DNA of 64,000 nt. Source: an uncultured Chthoniobacter sp. GTDB lineage: Bacteria > Verrucomicrobiota > Verrucomicrobiia > Chthoniobacterales > Chthoniobacteraceae. Below are positions 1 to 31,468 of this stretch, piece by piece (the first letter of the stretch is position 1; every line of letters starts with the position of its first letter). A model generated the notes under the pieces. It was not told the DNA's origin. It saw nothing but the letters and a program-made list of their open reading frames with translations, and did no database searches. The stretch is taken from assembly GCA_903874975.1 (NCBI GenBank), contig CAIQUL010000093.1, positions 1 through 64,000 on the forward strand, in the 5' to 3' direction. Position numbers and translations under genes: made by a program.

Positions 1-450
1 CCGGTCGCCGCGGATTTGGTATTCCACCGCGGCTTTCGAGAACCCGTTCTTTCGGTAAAACGCGCCGACATAAAACGCCGTGTCATCCGCGCGGACGGGC
101 GTGATTCTATTCTCCTGCAACTCGCGAATCTGCTCGGCGATGGGCGCGCGGAGTTGGTCCGCGGTGAAGGTCTGGTTGCCCGCGAAATCGAGTTTGTTCT
201 TCGCCGCGTCTTTCAGCGTCCCGACCAGCAGATCCGCTCCGGCGAGCGCGCGGGAGACATTTTCATCGGCGGCGCGGAGCGGTGCCCAGCCAGCGAGCAA
301 AGCGCACGCGGCCAGCACGCGGGAGCGTTTCCAATTTGGCCTCGCACCAAGACACCAAGGCACCAAGGAGAAGCGGAACCCGTGGATCCCTTCGTGCCTT
401 GGTGCCTTCGTGCGAGGCTCTCTTGGTGAGTGGTTGACGGGGCGGCGCAT
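1..450 (-). CDS. Omp85/BamA-TamA family outer-membrane protein, N-terminal part with signal peptide and POTRA start (runs off window edge)
   Basis: Minus strand is open from ATG at 450 to the window edge: MRRPVNHSPREPRTKAPRHEGIHGFRFSLVPWCLGARPNWKRSRVLAACALLAGWAPLRAADENVSRAL...FYVGAFYRKNGFSKAAVEYQIRGD; POTRA-like 'YRKNGFSKAAVEY'; overlaps the TamB-like stop as TGATG. Confidence 0.65.
   Translation of the reverse strand, partial: MRRPVNHSPREPRTKAPRHEGIHGFRFSLVPWCLGARPNWKRSRVLAACALLAGWAPLRAADENVSRALAGADLLVGTLKDAAKNKLDFAGNQTFTADQLRAPIAEQIRELQENRITPVRADDTAFYVGAFYRKNGFSKAAVEYQIRGDR
340..417. repeat. Imperfect inverted repeat built on 'caccaaggcaccaagg / cacgaaggcaccaaggcacgaagg'
   Basis: cctcgcaccaagacaccaaggcaccaagg (340-368) pairs with tcccttcgtgccttggtgccttcgtgcgagg (387-417) with about 3 mismatches. 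Confidence 0.85.
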
Positions 451-3400
451 CAGCGGAAACGGATCAGATATTTCAAGCTGCCGGTGAAGCGTCCGTCCAC
501 GCCGATGTCGCCGAGGAAGTAGAGGCTGTCGGTCATGCGAAAGCGCGTGTTGACCTGCTGGCTTCCGGAGTGGTTGTCGAGCGCGCCGAGTTCGACCTGA
601 AAGCGGTCCATGAACTGCCCGGCGTTTTCCTTCCGCTCCGTCGTTGCCGGCTCCGCCTTGCGCGGGACGACTTTGCGATAGAGCTGCTGCACGGCGAGCA
701 TCGCGGCGCGACTGGCGAGCACGTCGGCGCTGCCGCCGAGTTCGCTCACGGTGGTGCCGGTGGCGAGCAGGGAGACGATGTCCGAGTAGGGCAGGGGAGG
801 CTCGCTGTTGAGCTGGATCTGCGGGTCGGTGGCGCGTCCGTAGATGTAGGCGTGGACCAGGTGGTCGCGCACCTGGGAGTCGGCCTGGAGATCGATCGAC
901 GCCTGAAACGGATCGTCTTTTTTGAAGTAAACGAACCCGCGCGAAATGCTCAGCGTGCTGAAGGGCAGCGTGGCCTTGAATTTCTCGATGCGGATGCTGC
1001 CTTCGAGATACGGCGCGAGGCCCGTGCCCGCGAATTTCAGGTCCACAGCCGCCGCGCCATTCGCGAGATTTCCACGCACGAGAAACGGGTCGTCCGGGCG
1101 CGTCTTGATCGCGAGGTCAAACCTCCAGTCGCGCAGCGGCGGCCGCGGAAAGGAAACCGTGGCGTGGCGGTTCTGCACGGCGCGCGGCGCGGGCTTTGCC
1201 TTCTTCCCCGGCAGCGCGATGGGCAGGATGTCGATCTCTTTGAAGAAGCGGCTCTGGGTGAGGAAAAGCGTCCCACTGAGCGTGCCGGCCTGGAGCGGCC
1301 CGGCGACCTTGATGTCGGCATCGCCGCGGACGGTGATCGAGTCGTCGCGGCGCAGCAGCACTTCCTTCGATTGCAGCTGCAGATCGAAAACCGGCTCGGT
1401 GAGCTTCGGGAGTTTCACCGTCCCGCCGAGCTTGAAGGTGCCGCCGCCGAGTTCGCCGTCGAAGGTGCCGAAACTCAGCGTGTCATTGGCGAATCCGAGC
1501 TTCGCGCGGAAGGCACCGAGCGCCGGAATGTTCTCGTCGTCCATGCGTGCGCCTTTCAGCTCGATGGCCGCGGAGCCGCTGAAGACCGGCTTCGCCATGG
1601 TGCCGCCCACGCGGATGTCGAGGCCGGCGGTGCCGTCGATGCGGCGGACTGTGGGCACGAGTTTGGGCACCACCGCGAGCGAGGAGGGCGGGAGCTGCAC
1701 GGTCGCTTCGAGCGGCAGCGTCGGGTCGAGCTTGCGGGTTTTGACCAGGGCATCGAGGTCAAAGGGCGCGCGCGCTTTGAGCGTCAGCGGCTGAATCTGC
1801 GGCTGGCGCAGCACGGCGACGAGCGTGAGTTCTTTCGCGGGTTTGTTGGAATAGTGCAGGTCGAGATCGAGATCGGCAGCGTCGAGTGGCGCGCCGGCTT
1901 TCGCCTTCAAACTGCGCGCGGCGACTTTCAGGTGGCCGGCTGGTTCGAGGAGCGTGCCGCCGGCCACGAGGTTGGCGGTGAAATTGCCCGCGACCGGCGA
2001 CGCGTGGCCAAAGCTCGCGAGGAGCTTTTCGAGATCGAGCTTGGTGGCGTTGAGATTCGCCGCGATGCGCCCGTCCAGCGGGATGACCTGCTGCGGGCGG
2101 CCCAGGTCGATGGGGACGAAAACGAAGCCCGTGAGGACGGTGAGCTGCGCCTGGCTGAGCTTGATGTCGCGGAGGCGCAGCTTGTTTTCCTTCATCTCCA
2201 GCACGCCGGTAAAATCGGTCGGGCCGGAGGCGATGTGCAGCTCGGTGGACTGCGCGAAGCCGGGGCCGTAGAGACCGGCGAGCTTGAATTCGCGCAGGTC
2301 GGTTTTGTCGATGCGCGCCTTTTCCACCGCCACGGCGAGCGTGCCCGACTGCTCCAGCGGCGCACCCATTTTCGCCGACTCGCCTTTGCCGCCCCACTCG
2401 ATGCGGAGCGCGCCGGAGACGGTCTGCTGCACGTCGAAGACCGCGAGCAGCGGCTGGAGCGCGGCGAGGTTGCGGATGTCCACGAGCGCGGTGCCCTCGT
2501 AGGGGAAAGGTGCTTGCTGACCGACCCGCCCGAGCACGGAAATCTGGTCGGTGCCGGCGAGTTTGAGCGTGCCGCGCTCGACGGTTACCGCGTGTTCGGC
2601 GGCGTTGATCTGCACCGCGAGGCTGGGCGCTTTGAACGTGCCGAGTTGGAAGTCGCCGCCGTCCAGCCGCACGTTGCCGGTGAGTTCCTGGCTGGCGATC
2701 TTCAGCGCGCCGCTGCCTTCCACGCGGCCGGAGAACGTGCGGCTGTTCGCCGTCAGCCCGAAGTCCGCGAGTTTCGGGACGTGGATGGAAAATTTGACTT
2801 CGCCCGGCGCGGTGGCCGCGTCGCGGAAATTCCGCGGGATGCGCCAGTGGCCCTGCGCAGCCACGGAGTTTTCGGCGCGGCGCACCTCGAGCGTCTCGAT
2901 GGTTACGAGGTCGTCGCGATTGCCGCCCCGGAGCGTCGCGGCATCGAGGGTGAAGGTGTTCACGCGCAACCGCGTGAGATCGGCGGCGATTTCGCTCTCC
3001 ATCCCGGCCAAGGGCGCGCGGCCCGGCGTGTCGATGCGCTTCGAGACCTTGAGTTTCAACTTTCCCGCCTCGAGCGAGAGCTGCCGGTGGCCGATGCCCG
3101 CAGCCTCGATCACCACGTCCGCGCTGGCTCGTCCGTCGCGCAGCGTGACCGGCCCGCCGGCGCTCATGCGGCCGCGCCACGGTTCCGGCAGCAGGGCCGT
3201 GAGCACGGCGAGATCGGGCGCGTCGATCTTCAGCATGGCGTCCACGCCGCTGCGCGGAAACTCCGTCACGGATTCCGGGAGCGCGACCTTGGCCGTGAGG
3301 GCCACGAGGTTCGGTCCCGCCTGCACGTGCACGCCGGTCAGTCCGGCGTTGCCGCGCTCGAAAGTGGCGGCGAGTTCCGCGGCCTGCACTTTGGTTTGGG

Positions 3401-4442
3401 CGAAGTTCAGCGCCTCCACGCGGAGGTTGGCGCGCCCTTCCCAAGTGCGCGGCTTTTCCGGCTCGCCGGTGAAGTGCAACCCGAGCCGCGCGAGCGTGCC
3501 AAATTCCACCGGCAGCTTCGGCACGTTGAAATAGGCGAGCGTGCGATCGATCGAGATGCCCGCGGCGGTCACGCTCAGCGTGGTGTCGTAACTCTTCGCG
3601 AGGTGCTCGCCTTTCTTGTCGAGCTGACTGCCCTCCAGCCGCAGCGCCGCGGCGCCGCCAAAGGCGCGGAGTTTGAGCCGCGCGCCGCCCTTCTTCTTGG
3701 AGCGCTCGGAGGCGTCGAAGTTGAGTTTCTCCACCACCAGCTCCGGCCCGAGCTGCAGATCGCGAATTTCAAAGTTGCGCCCCGCGTAGGTCGTGGGGGC
3801 GGCGAGATTTTCCCACACCGGCACGCCGGGCACCTGCACGCGCGTGGCTCCGATGGTGCCCGGCAGCCGCGGGTCGAGCAGTAGATGAAAGCCGCGGATG
3901 TCCGTGACGTGCGGGCCGGCGATGACGCTGAGATTGAGGTTCTGCACTTTCACCCGGTCGGAGTAGAGCGCGGGCTGGCCGAGGATGGTGTTGAGAATTT
4001 GCGCGATGCCCTGCTGCGGTCGCGGCTCTCGCTTTTCACCCGCGTCCTGATCCGGCACCGCGACAAAGCGGAGATCGGCATCGGTGATCTCGTAGCTGCC
4101 GAGAAACTCTCCGACACCGCGCTGCACCAGTCGCGGGAAACTGTAATCGAGCCGCACACGGGCGATGGCGATCTTGCGGACCGGATTAGGGAAATCGCCC
4201 ACCGGTTCCGCGCGGACTCCCTCGATGGTGAGGTTCGTGAAAATGTTCCCGGAAAGCTGCAGGTCCACTTTCAAGTGTGCTCGCGCCGCACCCGCGATGA
4301 CCGCCCAGCGGACGCCGTGGTGAAAGAGCGGCCGGTGGAAAATCGCGACGAGCAACAGCAGCGGCAGCAGCCAGCGCCGGGCACGGCGGAACCAGCCGCG
4401 TTTCGGCTTCGGTTTCGCAGGTGGAGGCGTGGACTCCGGCAT
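450..4442 (-). CDS. TamB-like (DUF490) translocation/assembly module protein
   Basis: 1330 aa, N-terminal TM anchor, repetitive beta-rich AsmA/TamB-like body, C-terminal '...DSLYFLGDIGVDGRFTGSLKYLIRFR' typical of TamB; next to Omp85 gene. Confidence 0.85.
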   Translation of the reverse strand: MPESTPPPAKPKPKRGWFRRARRWLLPLLLLVAIFHRPLFHHGVRWAVIAGAARAHLKVDLQLSGNIFTNLTIEGVRAEPVGDFPNPVRKIAIARVRLDYSFPRLVQRGVGEFLGSYEITDADLRFVAVPDQDAGEKREPRPQQGIAQILNTILGQPALYSDRVKVQNLNLSVIAGPHVTDIRGFHLLLDPRLPGTIGATRVQVPGVPVWENLAAPTTYAGRNFEIRDLQLGPELVVEKLNFDASERSKKKGGARLKLRAFGGAAALRLEGSQLDKKGEHLAKSYDTTLSVTAAGISIDRTLAYFNVPKLPVEFGTLARLGLHFTGEPEKPRTWEGRANLRVEALNFAQTKVQAAELAATFERGNAGLTGVHVQAGPNLVALTAKVALPESVTEFPRSGVDAMLKIDAPDLAVLTALLPEPWRGRMSAGGPVTLRDGRASADVVIEAAGIGHRQLSLEAGKLKLKVSKRIDTPGRAPLAGMESEIAADLTRLRVNTFTLDAATLRGGNRDDLVTIETLEVRRAENSVAAQGHWRIPRNFRDAATAPGEVKFSIHVPKLADFGLTANSRTFSGRVEGSGALKIASQELTGNVRLDGGDFQLGTFKAPSLAVQINAAEHAVTVERGTLKLAGTDQISVLGRVGQQAPFPYEGTALVDIRNLAALQPLLAVFDVQQTVSGALRIEWGGKGESAKMGAPLEQSGTLAVAVEKARIDKTDLREFKLAGLYGPGFAQSTELHIASGPTDFTGVLEMKENKLRLRDIKLSQAQLTVLTGFVFVPIDLGRPQQVIPLDGRIAANLNATKLDLEKLLASFGHASPVAGNFTANLVAGGTLLEPAGHLKVAARSLKAKAGAPLDAADLDLDLHYSNKPAKELTLVAVLRQPQIQPLTLKARAPFDLDALVKTRKLDPTLPLEATVQLPPSSLAVVPKLVPTVRRIDGTAGLDIRVGGTMAKPVFSGSAAIELKGARMDDENIPALGAFRAKLGFANDTLSFGTFDGELGGGTFKLGGTVKLPKLTEPVFDLQLQSKEVLLRRDDSITVRGDADIKVAGPLQAGTLSGTLFLTQSRFFKEIDILPIALPGKKAKPAPRAVQNRHATVSFPRPPLRDWRFDLAIKTRPDDPFLVRGNLANGAAAVDLKFAGTGLAPYLEGSIRIEKFKATLPFSTLSISRGFVYFKKDDPFQASIDLQADSQVRDHLVHAYIYGRATDPQIQLNSEPPLPYSDIVSLLATGTTVSELGGSADVLASRAAMLAVQQLYRKVVPRKAEPATTERKENAGQFMDRFQVELGALDNHSGSQQVNTRFRMTDSLYFLGDIGVDGRFTGSLKYLIRFR

Positions 4443-4531
4443 CGGGGCCAGAGGCTAGCGGCGGCTCCCGGGCATGCAAGGCGGCGCGAGGTTGCGCCCG
4501 CGGAATCTTCTCCCCTAAAGTCCGCCGCTCT

Positions 4532-5461
4532 ATGAACGGCCCTTTCCGCTTTGCGCGCAGCGCTGGCTCCACGCTCACGCGCCACACGCGCCGGGTCGGG
4601 GCCATCGCGTGGCGGGCGGTGCAGAAATTCGACGAGACCGACGGCGAGCAGCGCGCGGCCTCGTTCGCGTATTACGCGTTCTTTTCCATGTTCCCGCTGA
4701 TCCTGCTGCTCATCACCATCGGCACGAGCTTCCTCGGGCCAAAGGCGGATGCGTCGTCGAAAATCATCGCCTATGTGAGCACGCAGATTCCGCTGGAGGA
4801 GCAGGACATGAAGGCCGTCATCAGCACGATCAATGGCGTGGTGCAGTCGCGGAAAAGCGCCGGGTTCATCGCCATCGGCGTGCTCTTTTGGACTTCGCTG
4901 CGGTTCTTTCAGGCGCTGGTCCGCGGCGTGAACCGCGCCTGGGGCACGAAGGAATACTCGTGGTGGCGTCTGCCGATCAAAAACCTCGGCATGCTCGGCA
5001 TCCTCACCAGCGTGCTCTTCCTCGGCATCATCGCGCCGGTGGTCCTGAAACAAGTCGAGGACTTCTATTGGTTTCATTCGCGGCAGGTCGGGCTGGATTT
5101 CAGCGTCTTTGGTTACGTCTTCCAATTTGCCCGGCTGCTCATCCCGGTCGTCGTCCTGTTCATCGGCATGAGTCTGTTCTTCAAGTACGCGCCACGCCGG
5201 CCGACCCGCTTCATCGAGGTCTGGAGCGCCGCGCTTTTCGTGACCATCTCGCTGGAACTGCTCCAGCGACTTTTCGTGCTCTACACCCGCAACATCGGCA
5301 ATTTCAACGCGCTCTACGGCACCTTCGGCAGCGTCGTGGCGCTGCTCCTGTGGATCTATCTTTCCGGCTCGATCATCATCCTCGGCGGCTGCATCTCGGC
5401 CGCGCGCTACGAGATCGACATGAGCCTCGCCGATCAGTCGGAGTCCGATCTGGCGAAGTAA
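4532..5461 (+). CDS. YihY/virulence factor BrkB family membrane protein
   Basis: MNGPFRFARSAG...EQRAASFAYYAFFSMFPLILLLITIGTSFLG; family signature; start chosen inside the longer ORF. Confidence 0.88.
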   Translation: MNGPFRFARSAGSTLTRHTRRVGAIAWRAVQKFDETDGEQRAASFAYYAFFSMFPLILLLITIGTSFLGPKADASSKIIAYVSTQIPLEEQDMKAVISTINGVVQSRKSAGFIAIGVLFWTSLRFFQALVRGVNRAWGTKEYSWWRLPIKNLGMLGILTSVLFLGIIAPVVLKQVEDFYWFHSRQVGLDFSVFGYVFQFARLLIPVVVLFIGMSLFFKYAPRRPTRFIEVWSAALFVTISLELLQRLFVLYTRNIGNFNALYGTFGSVVALLLWIYLSGSIIILGGCISAARYEIDMSLADQSESDLAK

Positions 5462-5467
5462 CGCGCG

Positions 5468-7261
5468 ATGGCTGCTCCCGACCCGAAACCCCGGCGCGAA
5501 AGCCTCCGCGAACTCGCGCATCTTTTCGCCTACGTCCGCCCGTACCGGCGGCGTTTCTACATCGCGATGGTCGCTTCGTTCGTGAGCATGACGTTCGGCG
5601 CGCTCTTTCCGTTTCTCGTTGCGCGGCTGCTCGCCGCCGCCGCGCCGGGTCTGCCGCCGGTGGTCATCGCCGGTCTGCGCCCCACGCTGGATCAGGTCGC
5701 CGTCGTCCTCATCGCGTCGCTGGGCATTCAGGCGGTGCTGACCTTCTTCTCGTCGCTCTCCTTCAACTCCGTCGGCGAGCGCGCGGTCGTCGATCTGCGC
5801 CAGGCGCTCTACGCCCGGCTGATCGCGCAGCCGATGGCCTTCTTCGGCGAGCATCGCGTGGGCGAACTCTCCAGCCGGCTCTCCAGCGATCTCGCGCAGA
5901 TTCAGGACACGCTGACTTTCACCGTCGCGCAGATCATCCGGCAATCCATGCTCCTCGTGGTCGGGCTCGTGGCCATCGCCGCGACCTCGCTCCAGCTCTC
6001 CGGCATCATGCTCGCCACGGTGCCGGTCTTCATGCTCGCAGCGGTGGTCTTCGGGCGGAAAGTGCGGCGCTTTTCCCGCGAGGCGCAGGACCGGCTGGCC
6101 GAGACCGCCACCGTGGTCGAGGAGACGCTCACGGGCATCGCCAACGTCAAAGCCTTTGGCAACGAAGCCTACGAGCAGCGCCGCTACGCCGCGGGGCTGG
6201 CGGGCTATCTCACGGTCATCCTCCGCACCGCGCGGTCCCGCGCCGCGCTCGTGGCCTTCATCATCTTCGCCATCTTTGGCGCGATCGTTCTGGTGCTGTG
6301 GTGGGGTGGCCGGCTGATGCAAACCGGCCAGCTTACGCACCCGCAGCTCACCCAATTCATTTTCTACACGCTCTTCATCGGCGGCGCGGTCTCGGCGCTC
6401 CCGGAGATTTTCAGCTCCGTGCAAAAGACGCTCGGAGCCACCCAGCGCGTGCGCGAACTGCTGCGCGAACCGGGTGAGGAGATTCCGCGCGCGGAGGCCG
6501 TCGCGGCGCGGCGTCTCACCGGCGATGTCCGCTTCGAGGCTGTCCATTTCCGCTATCCGAGCCGACCCGATCTGCCGGTGCTGCGGGGCGTTTCGCTGGA
6601 CGTGCGGGCGGGGGAAAAGATCGCGCTCGTCGGACCGAGCGGCGCCGGCAAAAGCACGCTCACCGCGTTGCTTCTGCGCTTCTACGAGCCGGATACGGGC
6701 GCGCTTTTGCTCGATGGCAAAGACGCGCGCGAGCTGCCCCTCGCCGCGGTGCGCGGCAACCTGGCGATCGTCCCGCAGGAAGTGCTGCTCTTCGGCGGCA
6801 GCATCCGGGAGAACATCGCCTACGGCCGCCCCGGCGCGAGCGAGGCGGACATCCGCGCCGCCGCCGAGCGCGCGTATTGCCACGAGTTCATCGCCCGCTT
6901 TCCCGAGGGCTACGACACGCTCGTGGGCGAACGTGGCGTGAAGCTCAGCGGCGGCCAGCGCCAGCGCCTCGCCATTGCCCGCGCGCTGCTCCGCGATCCG
7001 GCGATCCTCATTCTCGACGAGGCCACCAGTTCGCTCGACAGCGAGAGCGAAGCGCTCATCCAAAGCGCGCTCGCCACGCTGCTCGCCGGCCGCACGGCGT
7101 TCATCATCGCGCACCGCCTCGCCACCGTCCGTCAGTGCGACCGCATCTGCGTTTTGGAAAGCGGCGTCATCACCGAAACCGGCACGCACGCCGAACTCAT
7201 GGCCGCCCCGAGCGGCACTTATCGGCGGTTCGCGGAGTTGCAGTTTGGCGTGGGCGCGTAG
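5468..7261 (+). CDS. ABC transporter, fused permease/ATP-binding (MsbA-like exporter)
   Basis: Walker A GPSGAGKST, signature LSGGQRQRLAIARAL, Walker B ILILDEATSSLD, N-terminal 6-TM domain. Confidence 0.93.
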   Translation: MAAPDPKPRRESLRELAHLFAYVRPYRRRFYIAMVASFVSMTFGALFPFLVARLLAAAAPGLPPVVIAGLRPTLDQVAVVLIASLGIQAVLTFFSSLSFNSVGERAVVDLRQALYARLIAQPMAFFGEHRVGELSSRLSSDLAQIQDTLTFTVAQIIRQSMLLVVGLVAIAATSLQLSGIMLATVPVFMLAAVVFGRKVRRFSREAQDRLAETATVVEETLTGIANVKAFGNEAYEQRRYAAGLAGYLTVILRTARSRAALVAFIIFAIFGAIVLVLWWGGRLMQTGQLTHPQLTQFIFYTLFIGGAVSALPEIFSSVQKTLGATQRVRELLREPGEEIPRAEAVAARRLTGDVRFEAVHFRYPSRPDLPVLRGVSLDVRAGEKIALVGPSGAGKSTLTALLLRFYEPDTGALLLDGKDARELPLAAVRGNLAIVPQEVLLFGGSIRENIAYGRPGASEADIRAAAERAYCHEFIARFPEGYDTLVGERGVKLSGGQRQRLAIARALLRDPAILILDEATSSLDSESEALIQSALATLLAGRTAFIIAHRLATVRQCDRICVLESGVITETGTHAELMAAPSGTYRRFAELQFGVGA

Positions 7262-7309
7262 GACTTTGGGGCGGTCTAAGTCTGGGGGCACGACGGAGCA
7301 GCGGCCGAA

Positions 7310-7972
7310 TCACACCCGGCGCAACCACGCCTCAGTCGCGTATTTTGCCGCCGCCAGGGTGCTGCCAGCGGTCAGTTCGTCCGGCGTGAGCGGACGCCGG
7401 GTGAGCATCGTGGCGAATGTTTTCCCAAGCTGCGCCCCGACCTCCGCGGGCCGGGCTACGCTTTGGATGCTCCCTTGATGCAGCAGCCCCGCCCGCGTCC
7501 GTCGTTGCGCGGCTCCGGCGACTTTGCCCTCAGCGGCGAGGATGTCGTAGCGCGCGGGGTTTTCAAAACACGCCGCGGAAATGGGGTTGCTGGCGATGGT
7601 CGTCACGCGCACCTCCGCGCCATGTGCGGCGAGCAGAACGGCGAGCTGCTCGTGGATTGCGCGATACGATTCCTCCGGCGGGCGCCGCGCAAACGCACAG
7701 CCGCGCGGGACGATCAGCGTGTAGGTCACGTCCCCGCCGTGCGGGACGATGCCGCCGCCGGTCCAGCGGCGCACCATCTCGCGTCCCGGCCACGCCGCCT
7801 CCACGTCCGCCACTTTGCCGAAATACCCGAACGACACCGCGGGCTGCGCCCAGCGATAGACGCGGAGCAGCGGAGCGGTGCAGGACGCCAGCAGCACCTC
7901 GTCGAGCGCCATGTTCAGCGCGGCGTTGTGCGGCTCCGGATCGAGGACTTCGGTGAGTGCGGCGAAGATCAT
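7310..7972 (-). CDS. Lipoate-protein ligase A-like (BPL/LplA family)
   Basis: LNMALDEVLL...RVYRWAQPAVSFGYF...RRWTGGGIVPHGGDVTYTLIVP. Confidence 0.8.
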   Translation of the reverse strand: MIFAALTEVLDPEPHNAALNMALDEVLLASCTAPLLRVYRWAQPAVSFGYFGKVADVEAAWPGREMVRRWTGGGIVPHGGDVTYTLIVPRGCAFARRPPEESYRAIHEQLAVLLAAHGAEVRVTTIASNPISAACFENPARYDILAAEGKVAGAAQRRTRAGLLHQGSIQSVARPAEVGAQLGKTFATMLTRRPLTPDELTAGSTLAAAKYATEAWLRRV

Positions 7973-8055
7973 TTCCGCCAGCGTAGCCGGCTCGCGCGGC
8001 GCGACAATCTTCCGCCGTTGCCTTTCGCAGATGACTCGGTAGCCTCGCCGCACTT

Positions 8056-8949
8056 ATGGCAAAACCCGCTCTCGGTAAAGGACTCGGCGCGCTCATCAAT
8101 ACGCGTGTCGCCTCGCCTACTCCCGCCTTGGAAAGCGGGGAGCGGGTGCAGGTCGTGGACCTCACGCGGATCGTGCCGACGCCGCTCCAGCCGCGCACCG
8201 TTTTCCGCGACGACCATCTGGACGAACTCGTCGCCTCGATCAAAGAGCACGGGATCATCCAGCCGCTGATCGCCCGCAAACGCGGCGACCAGTTTGAACT
8301 CATCGCCGGGGAACGCCGCTGGCGGGCGGCCCAGCGGGCGGGGCTGGCGGAGGCGCCGGTGATCGTCCGTGAAGCCTCCGATCAGGAGGTGCTCGAACTC
8401 GCGCTCATCGAGAATCTTCAGCGCGAAGACCTGAACCCGATCGAGGAGGCGCGCGCCTTTTCCCGCCTGGCAGGCGAGTTTCATCTCCGCCAGGAGGACA
8501 TCGCGCAAAAAGTCGGCAAGAGCCGCGCCGCCGTGGCGAACAGCATGCGGCTGCTCGACCTGCACGAGCAGGTGCAGACGTGGCTCACGCAGGAACGCAT
8601 TTCCGTGGGGCACGCGAAAGTTTTGCTCTCCCTCAAGGCGCAGGACGAGCAGGCGCTGCTCGCGGAAGAAATCATTCGCCGCAGCCTGACGGTGCGTGCG
8701 GCGGAGACGCTGGTCGCCCAGCAGTTTGCGCAAAACGGCACGGTCAAGCCGAAGCGCGGGGCGAACTCGGGCAGCGGACCGGCGCTCGCGCCGACCTATC
8801 AGCACGTGCAAAACCGGCTGCAATCGCACCTCGCTACGCATGTCGTCCTGCATCACGGCGAAAAGCGCGGACGCATCGAGATCGAGTATTACGGCAACGA
8901 CGACTTGCAGCGGGTGCTTTCGCTCCTCGGGCTCGGTGAGGAAAGGTGA
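8056..8949 (+). CDS. parB: ParB/RepB/Spo0J family partition protein
   Basis: GKGLGALI, PLQPRTVF, ELIAGERRWRAAQRAG, LIENLQREDLNPIEEA, GKSRAAVANSMRLL. Confidence 0.93.
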   Translation: MAKPALGKGLGALINTRVASPTPALESGERVQVVDLTRIVPTPLQPRTVFRDDHLDELVASIKEHGIIQPLIARKRGDQFELIAGERRWRAAQRAGLAEAPVIVREASDQEVLELALIENLQREDLNPIEEARAFSRLAGEFHLRQEDIAQKVGKSRAAVANSMRLLDLHEQVQTWLTQERISVGHAKVLLSLKAQDEQALLAEEIIRRSLTVRAAETLVAQQFAQNGTVKPKRGANSGSGPALAPTYQHVQNRLQSHLATHVVLHHGEKRGRIEIEYYGNDDLQRVLSLLGLGEER

Positions 8950-10043
8950 CGGTGGCTTCCAGATTTCGGATGGCAGATTTCGGGTGGGTCGCGACAGCGA
9001 TCACGGCGGCCGCCTTGGTCGTGACGGGGTGCAAGCGGGCCGCGGTGCCGCCGGCTTCGCCGGAGACGGCGATCAACGCGGACGCAGCACCTGCGCCCGG
9101 ACTGAAACCGGCGACGCTGCCGGGCGACATCCGGCCGCCGACGAAAGTTGCGGCGAAGGTGACCGCGCCGGGGCCGGTGGAAATTTGGAAAGAGTTTTCC
9201 GGCGAGCGGGCGTTTGAGGAAGTGCGGAAGCAGGTCGAAATCGGGCCGCGCCCGGCGGGATCGGCGGAGCTGGAGAAGGCGCGGACGCTGATCGAGGACG
9301 GACTCCGCCGCACCGGCTGGGAGGTCGAACGGCAGACCTTCAGCAACGAGACGCCCCGCGGTCCGGTGACGTTCGTCAATCTGATCGGGCGCTTTTCACC
9401 GACGGGCCAAAGCCCCGTGCCGCGCGACACGCAGCGGGCCATCCTTTGCTCGCACTATGACACCAAGCGGTTCAGCACGATCCGCTTCACCGGTGCGAAC
9501 GACGGTGGCTCCAGCACCGGGGCGCTCATCGAGCTGGCCCGCGTCCTCGCGCTCGATCCCGCGCTGGCGGCGCAGGTGGAACTCGTCTTCTTCGACGGCG
9601 AGGAGGCGTTCGTGCAGTTCACCGACCCGGATGAACTCCGCGTGGACAATGCGGACGGCCTTTTTGGCAGCCGCCACTACGCCAGCCAGCTCCGCAAGAG
9701 CGGTCGCGCCCGGCAGTTTCAGTTCGGGATTTTGTGGGACATGATCGGCGACCGCGATCTCACCATTACACTCGAGCCCGGCTCGCCGCCGGAGCTGACG
9801 CGCGAAATCCTCGCTTCCGCCGACGCCCTCGGCTTGCGGCAGCACTTTGGCCGCTACGACCGGTCGATCCTCGACGACCACTACCCGCTCAACCGCATCC
9901 GCATTCCGACCATCAACCTCATTGATTTCGACTACCCCGCCTGGCACACCGCCGACGACACCCTCGAACGGCTCTCCCCCGAGAGCCTGCAAAAGATCGG
10001 CGCGGTCACGCTGCACTATTTGCGCAAGGCGCTGGGGAAGTAA
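8946..10043 (+). CDS. M28-family metallopeptidase / glutaminyl-peptide cyclotransferase-like lipoprotein
   Basis: GTG start overlapping the parB stop (or ATG at 8970); lipobox LVVTGC; CSHYDTKRF, GANDGGSSTGALIELAR, VFFDGEEAF, PTINLIDFDYPAWHTADDT. Confidence 0.85.
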   Translation: MTVASRFRMADFGWVATAITAAALVVTGCKRAAVPPASPETAINADAAPAPGLKPATLPGDIRPPTKVAAKVTAPGPVEIWKEFSGERAFEEVRKQVEIGPRPAGSAELEKARTLIEDGLRRTGWEVERQTFSNETPRGPVTFVNLIGRFSPTGQSPVPRDTQRAILCSHYDTKRFSTIRFTGANDGGSSTGALIELARVLALDPALAAQVELVFFDGEEAFVQFTDPDELRVDNADGLFGSRHYASQLRKSGRARQFQFGILWDMIGDRDLTITLEPGSPPELTREILASADALGLRQHFGRYDRSILDDHYPLNRIRIPTINLIDFDYPAWHTADDTLERLSPESLQKIGAVTLHYLRKALGK

Positions 10044-26481: not shown

Positions 26482-28254
26482 TTACTTCGCCGCCATGCGA
26501 CGGGCGATGAACTCCTGCACCTTGGGAATCTTGCAGTTGGCCAGCAGCTCCGCGGCCTTCACCGGATCGGCGGCGACGGCGGGCTCGGCGGCGTACCAGA
26601 GCAACAGCGGGAGGTTGTGATCCGTCGCATCCTCGGCATGCGACGCGAGGCCTTCGAGAATCGGCCAGCGCTGCGGGATCGGGAGGCGTTGCGCGGCGGA
26701 GGCGAGGTAAAGCCGCACCACCGGCGAGGCGTCGGCGCGCGCCATTTTCGCAAACTCCACCAGCTCCGCCGCCGTCGGCGTGCCGTCTTCGCAGCGGAGC
26801 TGGATGACCCACGCGCGCAGATATTCCAGCGGGCTTTTGAGCGTCTCCAGCGCCGTTGCCTCGTCGAGTCCCCCTACGCCGTGCAGCGCCCAGAGCGCGC
26901 GCAGCTTGCGCGTTTCATCGGGATTCTCGCGCAACATCTTTTGCAGCGCCGCCTGCACCTCCGGCTTCGCGCCGCGCTCCGCGAGCATCCGCCGCGCGTG
27001 CCGCACATACCAGTCATTGGCGTGGAGCTGCATCTGCACGAGTTCCGCGTCGGTGGCTTTCGCCAGATCCACGCCCACCGCCTTCGCGCCCTCATGCACG
27101 ATCTTGTAGATGCGCCCATTCGTCCGGTCCGTGAAGTTCCGCTGCTGATGGCACGGCACCTTGTCGTACCAGTCGTTGATCACCACGTTCCCATCCGGCC
27201 CGTACTGCGCGCTCAGGCCGCGGTACCACGCATCGGGCGACGCGAGGAAATCCATCTTCCGCTCGCTCTTCATCCCCGAGCCCGCGCGCACCAGCTTCTC
27301 GCAGCGCAGCTTGTTCATGTGGATGTCGCCGCAGAAAAACGTGTCGCGAAACTCCGCCGGCCACGTCCCGCCGAGATAGATCATCGCCCCGCAGTAGGCG
27401 CGCTTTTCGTACTCGAAATCCGCGATCGTCTTCAGGTCCGCATACGTGTGCCGGTTGCCATGCTGCCCCGCCTGCCGCTGGTAGCGCCCGCCCTGCACGG
27501 CCTGCCACATGTGCGGGATCACGCACGCGGCAAAAAACATCTGCCCGCGATCATTCCAATCCGCGCCCCACTGGTTGCTCCCGCCCTCAGCATACAGCTC
27601 GAATTTTTTCTTCCCCGGATGATACCGCCACACGCCCGCGTTCAGCTTCACGCGCTCCGTGTCGGGCGCGCCGGGCTGGCCTACGTTCGAGTTCGTGAAA
27701 ATGCCCTGCGTCCCGTAGAGCCAGCCGTCCGGGCCCCAGATGAAATTGTTCAGCGTCTCGTGGGTGTCCTGATTGCCCCAGCCATCGAGCACCACCACTG
27801 GCTCGCCGACGGCCTGATCCGTGCCGTCCTTCACCGGGAAAAAAAGCAGGTTCGGCGGCGCGCCCACCCACACCCCGCCGTGCCCCACCGCGATCCCGCT
27901 GGCAAAGGTCAGCTTGTCGTAAAAAACCGTCCGCTTCCGCGCTTTCCCGTCCGGCGCGAAATCCTCAAGGATCAAAATCTTGTCCACCGGTTTGCCGGGA
28001 CAATCCGGGTAGTTGGTATTCTCCAGCACCCACAGCCGCCCGCGGTCGTCGTAGGAGAAAGCGATGGGCTGCACCACATCCGGCTCCGCCGCCACCACCT
28101 GCGCGGAGAACCCCGGCGGCAGCTTCATCTGCCGCGCCGCCTCCGCCGCCGACAACGGCTCGGTGCGTGCGACCGGGCGGTTCCTGTCCTCAAGCGGGCT
28201 AGCGGCGACCGCAATTGAGGCGAGGGTGAGAAGGATGGAGAGCGTGGATTTCAT
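26482..28254 (-). CDS. PVC-type membrane-bound dehydrogenase domain protein
   Basis: LPPGFSAQVVAAEPDVVQPIAFSYDDRGRLWVLENTNYPDCPGKPVDKILILEDFAPDGKARKRTVFYD...NLPLLLWYAAEPAVAADPVKAAELLANCKIPKVQEFIARRM. Confidence 0.88.
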   Translation of the reverse strand: MKSTLSILLTLASIAVAASPLEDRNRPVARTEPLSAAEAARQMKLPPGFSAQVVAAEPDVVQPIAFSYDDRGRLWVLENTNYPDCPGKPVDKILILEDFAPDGKARKRTVFYDKLTFASGIAVGHGGVWVGAPPNLLFFPVKDGTDQAVGEPVVVLDGWGNQDTHETLNNFIWGPDGWLYGTQGIFTNSNVGQPGAPDTERVKLNAGVWRYHPGKKKFELYAEGGSNQWGADWNDRGQMFFAACVIPHMWQAVQGGRYQRQAGQHGNRHTYADLKTIADFEYEKRAYCGAMIYLGGTWPAEFRDTFFCGDIHMNKLRCEKLVRAGSGMKSERKMDFLASPDAWYRGLSAQYGPDGNVVINDWYDKVPCHQQRNFTDRTNGRIYKIVHEGAKAVGVDLAKATDAELVQMQLHANDWYVRHARRMLAERGAKPEVQAALQKMLRENPDETRKLRALWALHGVGGLDEATALETLKSPLEYLRAWVIQLRCEDGTPTAAELVEFAKMARADASPVVRLYLASAAQRLPIPQRWPILEGLASHAEDATDHNLPLLLWYAAEPAVAADPVKAAELLANCKIPKVQEFIARRMAAK

Positions 28255-28447
28255 AAAATGGGGTGGTGGGAAAACCGGAGACGGCAAGTGTAATTAGAGG
28301 GATTTTGGAGAGTTTGCTTTTTGGTTTGTAGCGACCTGCTCCACGGATGGCACGGACTTCATTTGTGGAAGTCTCTCCTTTTTCATCGGCGATCTTTCGT
28401 GGAAACCTCCGGGCTGGCTGGCGCGAACCGCGGGCCGCTGCGGCGCG

Positions 28448-29738
28448 GTGGTGCGGAGCCATCCGCGGCGGAGTGCGGCGGCGGCGTTGCTCGTCCTCGC
28501 CTTCTCGGCAGGTGGCTGGTGGGCGTACGACTGGCGGCAGCGGCAGCCGAAGCCGGTGAGGATCAGCGTGAAGGTGGAAGCCACCGGGGTGACGAAGCTG
28601 GAGAAGGTGTTGCAGCCGCAGGCGCTGGCGGTCGTCTTTGGTGCTTCGGTGGCAAAGGTCGAGGACCACGCAGGGTTGCCGGTCACGACGGGCATCCGCA
28701 TGGAGCCGGCGGTCGAGGGGGAGTGGAAATGGGTGGGTGACACGCGGCTGGTGTTTCGCCCGAAGAGCGACTGGGCGGCGGGGCCGAAGTATCACATCAC
28801 CCTGGATCGTTCCCTTTTCCCCAAGCACGTGCAGCTCGAACGCTACGAAGTGGACATGCAGACGGCGTCCTTCGTGGCGACGATGCCGAAGATCGAGTTC
28901 TACACCGATTCGACGGACCCGACGGTGAAGCAGATTGTGGCGACGCTGGAGTTCACGCACCGCGTGGACATGGTGGCGCTGGAGAAGAAGCTCAGCCTCG
29001 CGATGCTCGGCGGCGCGGATGTTTTCAAAAAGGGCGCGCCTCGCTTCACGCTCACTGCGGGACTGCACCAGCGCACCGCGTATCTGCGGACGAGCGCGCT
29101 CGTGCTGCCGGAGCGCGAGGACTTCATGCGGGTGACGCTGGCGAAGGGCTTGCGTCTCGTGCAGGGCAGCGCGGAGACGGCCGTGGACATCGAGAAAAAA
29201 GTCCGCGTGCCGGACATCGCCAGCTTCTTCCGTATCGAGTCGGTGGAGGGCACGGTCGTGCGCAACCATGAGGGCGAACCCGAGCAACTGCTCCTCATCC
29301 ACACCACCGGCGCGGCGAAGTCCGAGGACCTCCAGAAAGCGCTCCACGTTTATCTGCTGCCGAAAAAGTCCGCCGACCAAGACGCCGAAGCTGACGAAAA
29401 GAAATGGGCGGGCCCGAAGAAAATCGACGAGGAGGTGCTCAAGAAAGCGGTGCTGCTGCCGATCAAGCTCGTCCCGTCCGGCAAGGAAAACACCGACCTG
29501 CACAGTTTCCGGATCAGCCTCGAAACCGCCGGTCAGCTTTTCGTGACGATCGCCAAAGGTGTCAGGCCGCTGGGCGGATTCACGCTCGGCGAGGATTACG
29601 CGAACGTGCTCGCGGTACCGAAGCTCCCGCGCGAAATCGAGATTCAGGGCCAAGGCGGCGTGTTTGCGCTGAACGGCGAGCGGAAGCTGTCCAGTAAGTC
29701 GCGCGGCGTCCGCCAGATCGAATACGAGATCGCGCGCG
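28448..29738 (+). pseudogene. Alpha-2-macroglobulin-like lipoprotein family, 5' part only (truncated at a fusion junction)
   Basis: About 430 aa with A2M N-terminal features (...TRLVFRPKSDWAAGPKYHITLD..., ...SRGVRQIEYEIAR) stopping abruptly; ORF track continues out of frame into pbpC sequence. Confidence 0.7.
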
Positions 29739-30191
29739 GTCTTCGATCACTACGTGCTCGCGGTGTGGGTCGGCAATTTCGACGGACGCCGCAATCCCGC
29801 GTTCATCGGCCGCACCTGCGCGGGTCCGTTGCTGTTTCAAATGATCGACAGCATGCGGCTCCAGAGTCGATCCCGGCCGCCGCCCATCGCGCCCGGCTCG
29901 GGTGTGGAGATGACCGCGCGCACCGGCAAGCCGCCGCAGATCGCGTCGCCGGTCAGCGGTCGCGTCGATGCGCTGGGCAACGGTAATGATGCCATCGCGC
30001 TCCAGACGGACACGGAGCCGGATGTGGCGAAGCTCTACTGGTTCGCGGGCAAAGTATTTCTCGGTGCCGCGGCGCCGCGCGAGGCGCTGCGCTGGTATCC
30101 CGCGCCAGGCGTGTATCATCTCACGGCGGTCGACGACCGGGGGCGCTCCAGCACCTGCAAAGTCACGCTGCAAACCGTCGCCGTAAAGTAG
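29739..30191 (+). pseudogene. pbpC: Penicillin-binding protein 1C C-terminal fragment
   Basis: VFDHYVLAVWVGNFDGRRNPAFIGRTCAGPLLFQMID...PVSGRVDALGNGNDAIALQTDTEPDVAKLYWFAGKVFLG..., PbpC transpeptidase tail plus BiPBP_C-like domain; no upstream PBP domains. Confidence 0.75.
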
Positions 30192-30242
30192 CTTGGACTT
30201 TAGTCCAACGGCCGGTGAAGCGTTTGGACTAAAGTCCAAGCT
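30190..30242. repeat. Nested palindromic repeat AGCTTGGACTTTAGTCCAA...TTGGACTAAAGTCCAAGCT, copy 1
   Basis: Perfect 19-bp inverted repeat; each arm is itself near-palindromic. Confidence 0.95.
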
Positions 30243-30289
30243 CCTTTGCCGAATAAGACTTCCGCGCTTCGGCGGTTGTCCATACACCG

Positions 30290-31468
30290 ATGCCCATGCC
30301 GCAAACGATCGCCTCCGAACTCGCTGAACTGCGCGCGCGGTCGCTGTTGCGGTCGCTGCGGGAGATGGATTCGCCGCAGCAGCCGACAGTGGAGTTGGCG
30401 GGAAAAAAGCTCATCAATTTCTCCTCGAACGACTACCTCGGTCTGGCCACCGAGCCCGCGCTGCGCGAGGCGGCAAAGGCGGCGATCGACCAGTATGGCG
30501 TGGGCGCGGGCGCGAGCCGGCTGGTCTGCGGCACGCTTTCGCCGCATGTGCGGCTGGAGGAAAAACTCGCGGAGTTCAAGCGCACGGAAGCGGCGCTCAC
30601 ATTTTCCAGCGGCTACGCGACGGCGCTCGGGACGCTGGGGGCGCTGTGCCAGAAAGACGACGTGATCATTTTGGACAAGCTCGCGCACGCTAGCCTGATC
30701 GACGGCGCACGGCTGAGCGGCGCGCACGTGCGTGTCTTTCCGCACAACCACATGGGCAAGCTGGAGAGTCATCTCGCGTGGGCGCGTGACAATTTCCCTG
30801 AGGCGCGTGTGGTGGTGGTCACGGAGGCGGTTTTCAGCATGGACGGCGATTGGGCGCTGCTCGCGGAGATCGTGGAATTGAAGCTGCGCTTCGGTGCGCT
30901 GCTGCTGCTCGACGAGGCGCACGCGGTCGGCGTGATCGGCGCGCACGGGCGCGGGCTGGCGGAGCAACTCGGGCTGGCCGGCGCGGTGGACATTCACATG
31001 GGCACGCTGAGCAAGGCGCTCGGCGTGAGCGGCGGCTACGTGTGCGGCGGGCGGCGGTTGATCGAGCTGCTGGTGAACCGCGCGCGGAGTTTCATCTACT
31101 CCACCGCGCCATCGCCCGCAGTGGCGGCGGCGGGATGTGCGGCGGTGGAGTGGATGCTGTCGGCAGCGGGGGAGAAGCGGCGGCAGCAGCTTCGGCAAAA
31201 TCTCGCGCAGTTTGCGTCGGAGATGCCGCCGCTGTTTTCCGGCGAGAGGAAAGTGCAGAGCGCGATCGTGCCGGTGATCGTGGGGAAGGCGGAGGCGGCG
31301 CTCGAAGCGGCGCAGTTGCTGGCGGACAAAGGGTTTCTCGTCCCGGCGATCCGCTTCCCGACGGTGGCGCGCGACGCGGCGCGGCTGCGGGTGACGCTCT
31401 CCGCGCGGCACACGCCGCGGCAGATCAGCGGGTTGTGCGCGGTGCTGCGGAATATCGCGGCGGGGTAG
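30290..31468 (+). CDS. bioF: 8-amino-7-oxononanoate synthase
   Basis: NFSSNDYLGLA...GVGAGASRLVCGTLSPHVRLEE...ALTFSSGYATALG...LLDEAHAVGVIGAHGRGLAE...MGTLSKALGVSGGYV. Confidence 0.92.
   Translation: MPMPQTIASELAELRARSLLRSLREMDSPQQPTVELAGKKLINFSSNDYLGLATEPALREAAKAAIDQYGVGAGASRLVCGTLSPHVRLEEKLAEFKRTEAALTFSSGYATALGTLGALCQKDDVIILDKLAHASLIDGARLSGAHVRVFPHNHMGKLESHLAWARDNFPEARVVVVTEAVFSMDGDWALLAEIVELKLRFGALLLLDEAHAVGVIGAHGRGLAEQLGLAGAVDIHMGTLSKALGVSGGYVCGGRRLIELLVNRARSFIYSTAPSPAVAAAGCAAVEWMLSAAGEKRRQQLRQNLAQFASEMPPLFSGERKVQSAIVPVIVGKAEAALEAAQLLADKGFLVPAIRFPTVARDAARLRVTLSARHTPRQISGLCAVLRNIAAG

Follow-up and report, generated by a model that had tools for sequence, protein, structure and literature searches.

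The window examined here, a stretch of 64,000 nt from contig C93 in the draft genome of an uncultured Chthoniobacter sp. (3.86 Mb, 348 contigs, 95.9 % complete), contains an open reading frame that starts like an alpha-2-macroglobulin (A2M) gene and runs into the end of a gene for penicillin-binding protein 1C (PBP1C; pbpC). This raises the question of whether the locus is a new fusion gene, a product of the assembly or what is left of two neighbouring genes.

The join and the two truncated genes

The A2M frame extends from GTG 28448 to a stop at 29986 (512 aa). The initial annotation read its first ~430 codons as A2M-like and joined out of frame to the C-terminus of PBP1C, which was confirmed by homology searches against relatives. 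Codons 1–430 match the N-terminus of A2M with 57–67 % identity in the closest three full matches (67 % in genome G002, 62 % in C. flavus and 57 % in G014; E values down to 5e-183), and the match ends at position 29737. The match to the C-terminus of PBP1C begins at 29742, in the next frame, with FDHYVLAVWVGNFDG... (E = 5e-37), and ends with a TAG codon at 30189–30191. Both matches at the join are far beyond chance. The pbpC 3′-end remnant (29742–30191, + strand, one frame off the A2M remnant) thus retains the end of the transpeptidase region, the BiPBP_C domain (PF06832, E = 2.9e-13) and the native stop codon; BiPBP_C was the sole domain found in it by Pfam, and neither the transglycosylase nor the transpeptidase domain (Transgly and Transpeptidase), both present in relatives, was detected.

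The junction lies at 29735–29738 (+ strand), where CGCG is common to the A2M and PBP1C sides and 6.0–6.3 kb are absent with respect to relatives. The A2M side reads GAGATCGCGCGCG-TGCC in G002 and the PBP1C side reads TCGGT-CGCGGTTTTCGATCAC in G001, the window having GAGATCGCGCGCGGTCTTCGATCAC; the overlap is therefore CGCG only, and the longer microhomology GCGCGCG initially proposed was not borne out. Its extent is bounded by conserved residues on either side of the join (VPADQIN and VFDH). By a chance estimate, 2.7 % of joins made at random in this region would overlap by at least 4 nt, and the CGCG microhomology is a modest hint, not a proof. A 13-nt direct repeat, ACGTGCTCGCGGT, also occurs at 29604–29616 and 29752–29764, with one copy per remnant and away from the join, and is probably due to chance.

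The PBP1C remnant contains a second junction (29850–29876, + strand), where 97 codons (291 nt) are gone in frame: the distance from FQ to PPP is 14 aa in the window vs exactly 111 aa in the four of four relatives measured.

The 5′ end of the A2M gene is also altered. Comparison by tblastn and codon alignment with G002, G001, C. flavus, G014 and G021 aligned 455 codons of a type I A2M, comprising the transmembrane anchor and the N-terminal part, over 28373–29737 (+ strand). The assignment of the codons that follow 28448 to A2M thus stands, but homology begins further upstream than initially annotated, at ~28373, and GTG 28448 is now the first in-frame start. In the 5′ region (28298–28447, + strand), the ATG of the relatives aligns to ~GGC 28349 and the motif GDLSWKPPGW is retained at 28388–28417, and the A2M frame contains no ATG, GTG or TTG after the stop at 28295 until GTG 28448 is reached. 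The native A2M start codon is lost. Translation from GTG 28448, which in our reading of the sequence is followed by the transmembrane segment, is possible. Pfam identified Big_10 alone above the cut-off in this remnant; the bait region domain (PF07703) was not found in it, whereas relatives carry A2M_BRD. The CXEQ thioester is likewise not in the remnant, because the CSEQ of the relatives (NYPNGCSEQ) falls within the deleted part. As for the origin of the altered 5′ end, a copied repeat element was considered and rejected, the stretch 28260–28400 and its hairpin being single-copy in the genome.

The intact pair in relatives

PMC5764988 and PMC4498604, citing Budd et al. (2004), describe type I A2M genes as having a CXEQ thioester and often adjoining pbp1C, and they give as a proposal that A2M and PBP1C act jointly in defending the periplasm and repairing the wall. 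The remnants derive from such a pair, an operon of the yfhM-pbpC type in which A2M is directly followed by pbpC. This is the arrangement in C. flavus Ellin428 (G004, contig C52; record NZ_ABVL01000011.1), G014 and G021, in which the points that meet in the window are 6,339, 6,013 and 6,026 nt apart, respectively. The missing segment encodes the MG3, MG2, MG5, MG6, bait-region, A2M and bMG10 domains and the CSEQ thioester, followed by the transglycosylase and most of the transpeptidase domain of PBP1C. Hence, whereas the operons of relatives have a bait region, CSEQ thioester, transglycosylase, transpeptidase and BiPBP_C, the window has the N-terminus of A2M and the C-terminus of PBP1C, and no active part. 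A search of the whole genome for orthologs of the missing C. flavus parts found none elsewhere, the matches being divergent proteins (26 % and 39 % or less, for the middle of A2M and the catalytic parts of PBP1C). An orthologous pair with the missing segment in three relatives, and the absence of this segment from the rest of the genome, are what a deletion pseudogene predicts.

Two relatives showed peculiarities of their own. In C. flavus, A2M and pbpC lie in one stop-free frame of 2786 codons (L038:3856–12643), and the C-terminus of PBP1C shifts frame near L038:12000, which may reflect a sequencing or draft error or decay. In G001 (L041:2835–3028), A2M departs from homology at ~codon 345 into a 194-nt stretch unique to that contig end, with possible causes being an independent truncation or a chimeric contig end, which are indistinguishable; a tRNA-Val gene is situated upstream of this A2M.

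With an A2M ortholog in 16 of the 40 genomes of the family (E ≤ 1e-20), absence of the gene is common, and the same A2M-pbpC join was present in none of the other genomes searched. In relatives, nothing at the A2M-pbpC loci matched the genes flanking the remnants, so that synteny is of no help in dating the deletion. The upstream neighbour (26482–28287, − strand) is a divergently oriented ORF of 601 aa from the ORF list, and the downstream one (30290–31468, + strand) is an open gene for an enzyme with the fold of PLP-dependent aminotransferases (Pfam Aminotran_1_2); from their sequences, their products were named as probably a PVC-type membrane-bound dehydrogenase and 8-amino-7-oxononanoate synthase (bioF), respectively. 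Just 3′ of the pbpC stop there is a near-perfect 24-nt inverted repeat (30185–30247), with core TTGGACTTTAGTCCAA, that looks like a REP/REPIN-type palindrome: the core has 20 exact copies in the genome vs none for the reversed control, and on both C75 and C93 it occurs as an opposite-orientation pair with a start-to-start spacing of 31 nt.

Deletion or assembly artefact

We consider it highly probable that the locus is what remains, as a pseudogene, of a type I A2M-pbpC operon after a deletion of ~6.0–6.3 kb. The initial annotation invoked one large deletion that took in most of the neighbouring genes A2M and pbpC, which fits the contiguous pairs of relatives but does not account for the second, 291-nt deletion or for the lost start codon. 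The ancestor would have carried A2M directly followed by pbpC, as seen in relatives; the deletion would have extended from A2M codon ~430 to the end of the transpeptidase region of PBP1C, and its ends would have been joined out of frame, probably via end joining or slippage at the 4-nt CGCG match. The in-frame deletion in PBP1C and the loss of the A2M start codon, both observed, would be further lesions, acquired in either order. If translated, the product would be a membrane-anchored N-terminal A2M fragment without bait region, thioester or PBP activity and with 82 out-of-frame residues at its end. GC content by codon position, alike in both remnants and the neighbouring gene, fits this reading. 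Both remnants are still open in their own frames, which in DNA of ~64 % GC is weak counter-evidence to decay.

Deletion pseudogenes joined at short microhomology occur in bacterial genomes, and the locus resembles them in its two truncated neighbours, out of frame, with few shared bases and small lesions nearby. Compared with deletion pseudogenes in general there is nothing distinctive, except that the two genes hit by the deletion happen to be linked in function.

The genome being a draft in 348 contigs, the metagenome assembler might instead have linked far-apart sites of an A2M-pbpC locus that is in fact intact, as a chimeric join or from a mixture of strains, although we regard this as improbable. 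Short-read assemblers join on words longer than 7–13 nt, and a repeat can bring about a join only where the shared word approaches the assembly k-mer in length. In relatives, no word of more than 7 nt is common to the 60-nt surroundings of the two breakpoints, and the longest word common to both remnants, of 13 nt, lies away from the join; since these words are too short for a k-mer assembler, a repeat-driven collapse, put forward in the initial annotation as an alternative, is unlikely. Furthermore, none of the other contigs of this 95.9 % complete genome carries the missing DNA, the second deletion and the lost start codon are close by, and the junction is internal to a contig that is 64 kb long or longer, the window being free of N.

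Age of the deletion and the second A2M-PBP1C pair

We compared rates of change in the A2M remnant and in G002 in relative-rate tests. With G014 as outgroup, the remnant had 48 unique residues vs 44 in G002, and unique changes by codon position numbered 43, 37 and 67 in the remnant and 43, 31 and 64 in G002, with third positions the richest in both. With C. flavus the figures were 74 vs 36 unique residues, a comparison that is biased because C. flavus (66.8 %) and the window (66.1 %) are equally close to G002. A clear acceleration of protein change in the A2M remnant was therefore not found in these tests, which were mixed by outgroup, and we do not claim relaxed selection on it, since the outcome depends on the outgroup. 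The lack of clear acceleration suggests that the damage is probably recent, the simplest reading being that the gene became damaged only late in its history.

Contig C48 (L047 in G000, positions 240–9400) carries a second, divergent A2M-PBP1C pair. Its A2M is an open frame of 2282 aa with bait region, A2M and bMG10 domains, and its PBP1C-like neighbour (865 aa) has Transgly, Transpeptidase and a weak BiPBP_C; related genes exist in G003 and C. flavus. The PBP1C relatives of the C48 copy on contig C70 of G003 and contig C62 of C. flavus contain internal stop codons within the match, which may be frame breaks. With a divergent second pair that has these domains, function need not be lost, and the earlier proposal that the deletion removed a periplasmic protease-trap and peptidoglycan-repair module was too strong. 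Loss of the first pair would perhaps have been tolerated owing to the second.

The shortened gene could also be functional, a membrane-anchored N-terminal A2M fragment (~512 aa from GTG 28448) under selection, for instance as a decoy or by modulating the second A2M. In favour of this are the open A2M frame, the transmembrane segment after GTG 28448 and the lack of clear acceleration in the remnant, although a recent deletion would be expected to leave the same signal of constraint. Against it, the conserved start has been lost, the join is followed by 82 out-of-frame residues, neither bait region nor thioester remains and no other genome searched has the join. Such a function is very unlikely, and we give hardly any credit to the proposal that the joined gene was kept as a short A2M fragment, anchored in the membrane, that has taken on a new role alongside the second pair.

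A deletion pseudogene, the preferred reading, makes the locus a case of ordinary gene decay, and a well-documented one; in a literature search on Chthoniobacter pseudogenes, titles and abstracts contained nothing on the A2M-pbpC locus. Both pieces are best annotated as remnants of pseudogenes and not as a new fusion protein. The joint loss of both partners fits the idea of A2M and PBP1C as a unit, of which a single event is no test, and the locus gives a clear picture of the one-step loss of an A2M-pbpC pair in a family with an already patchy distribution of the ortholog.
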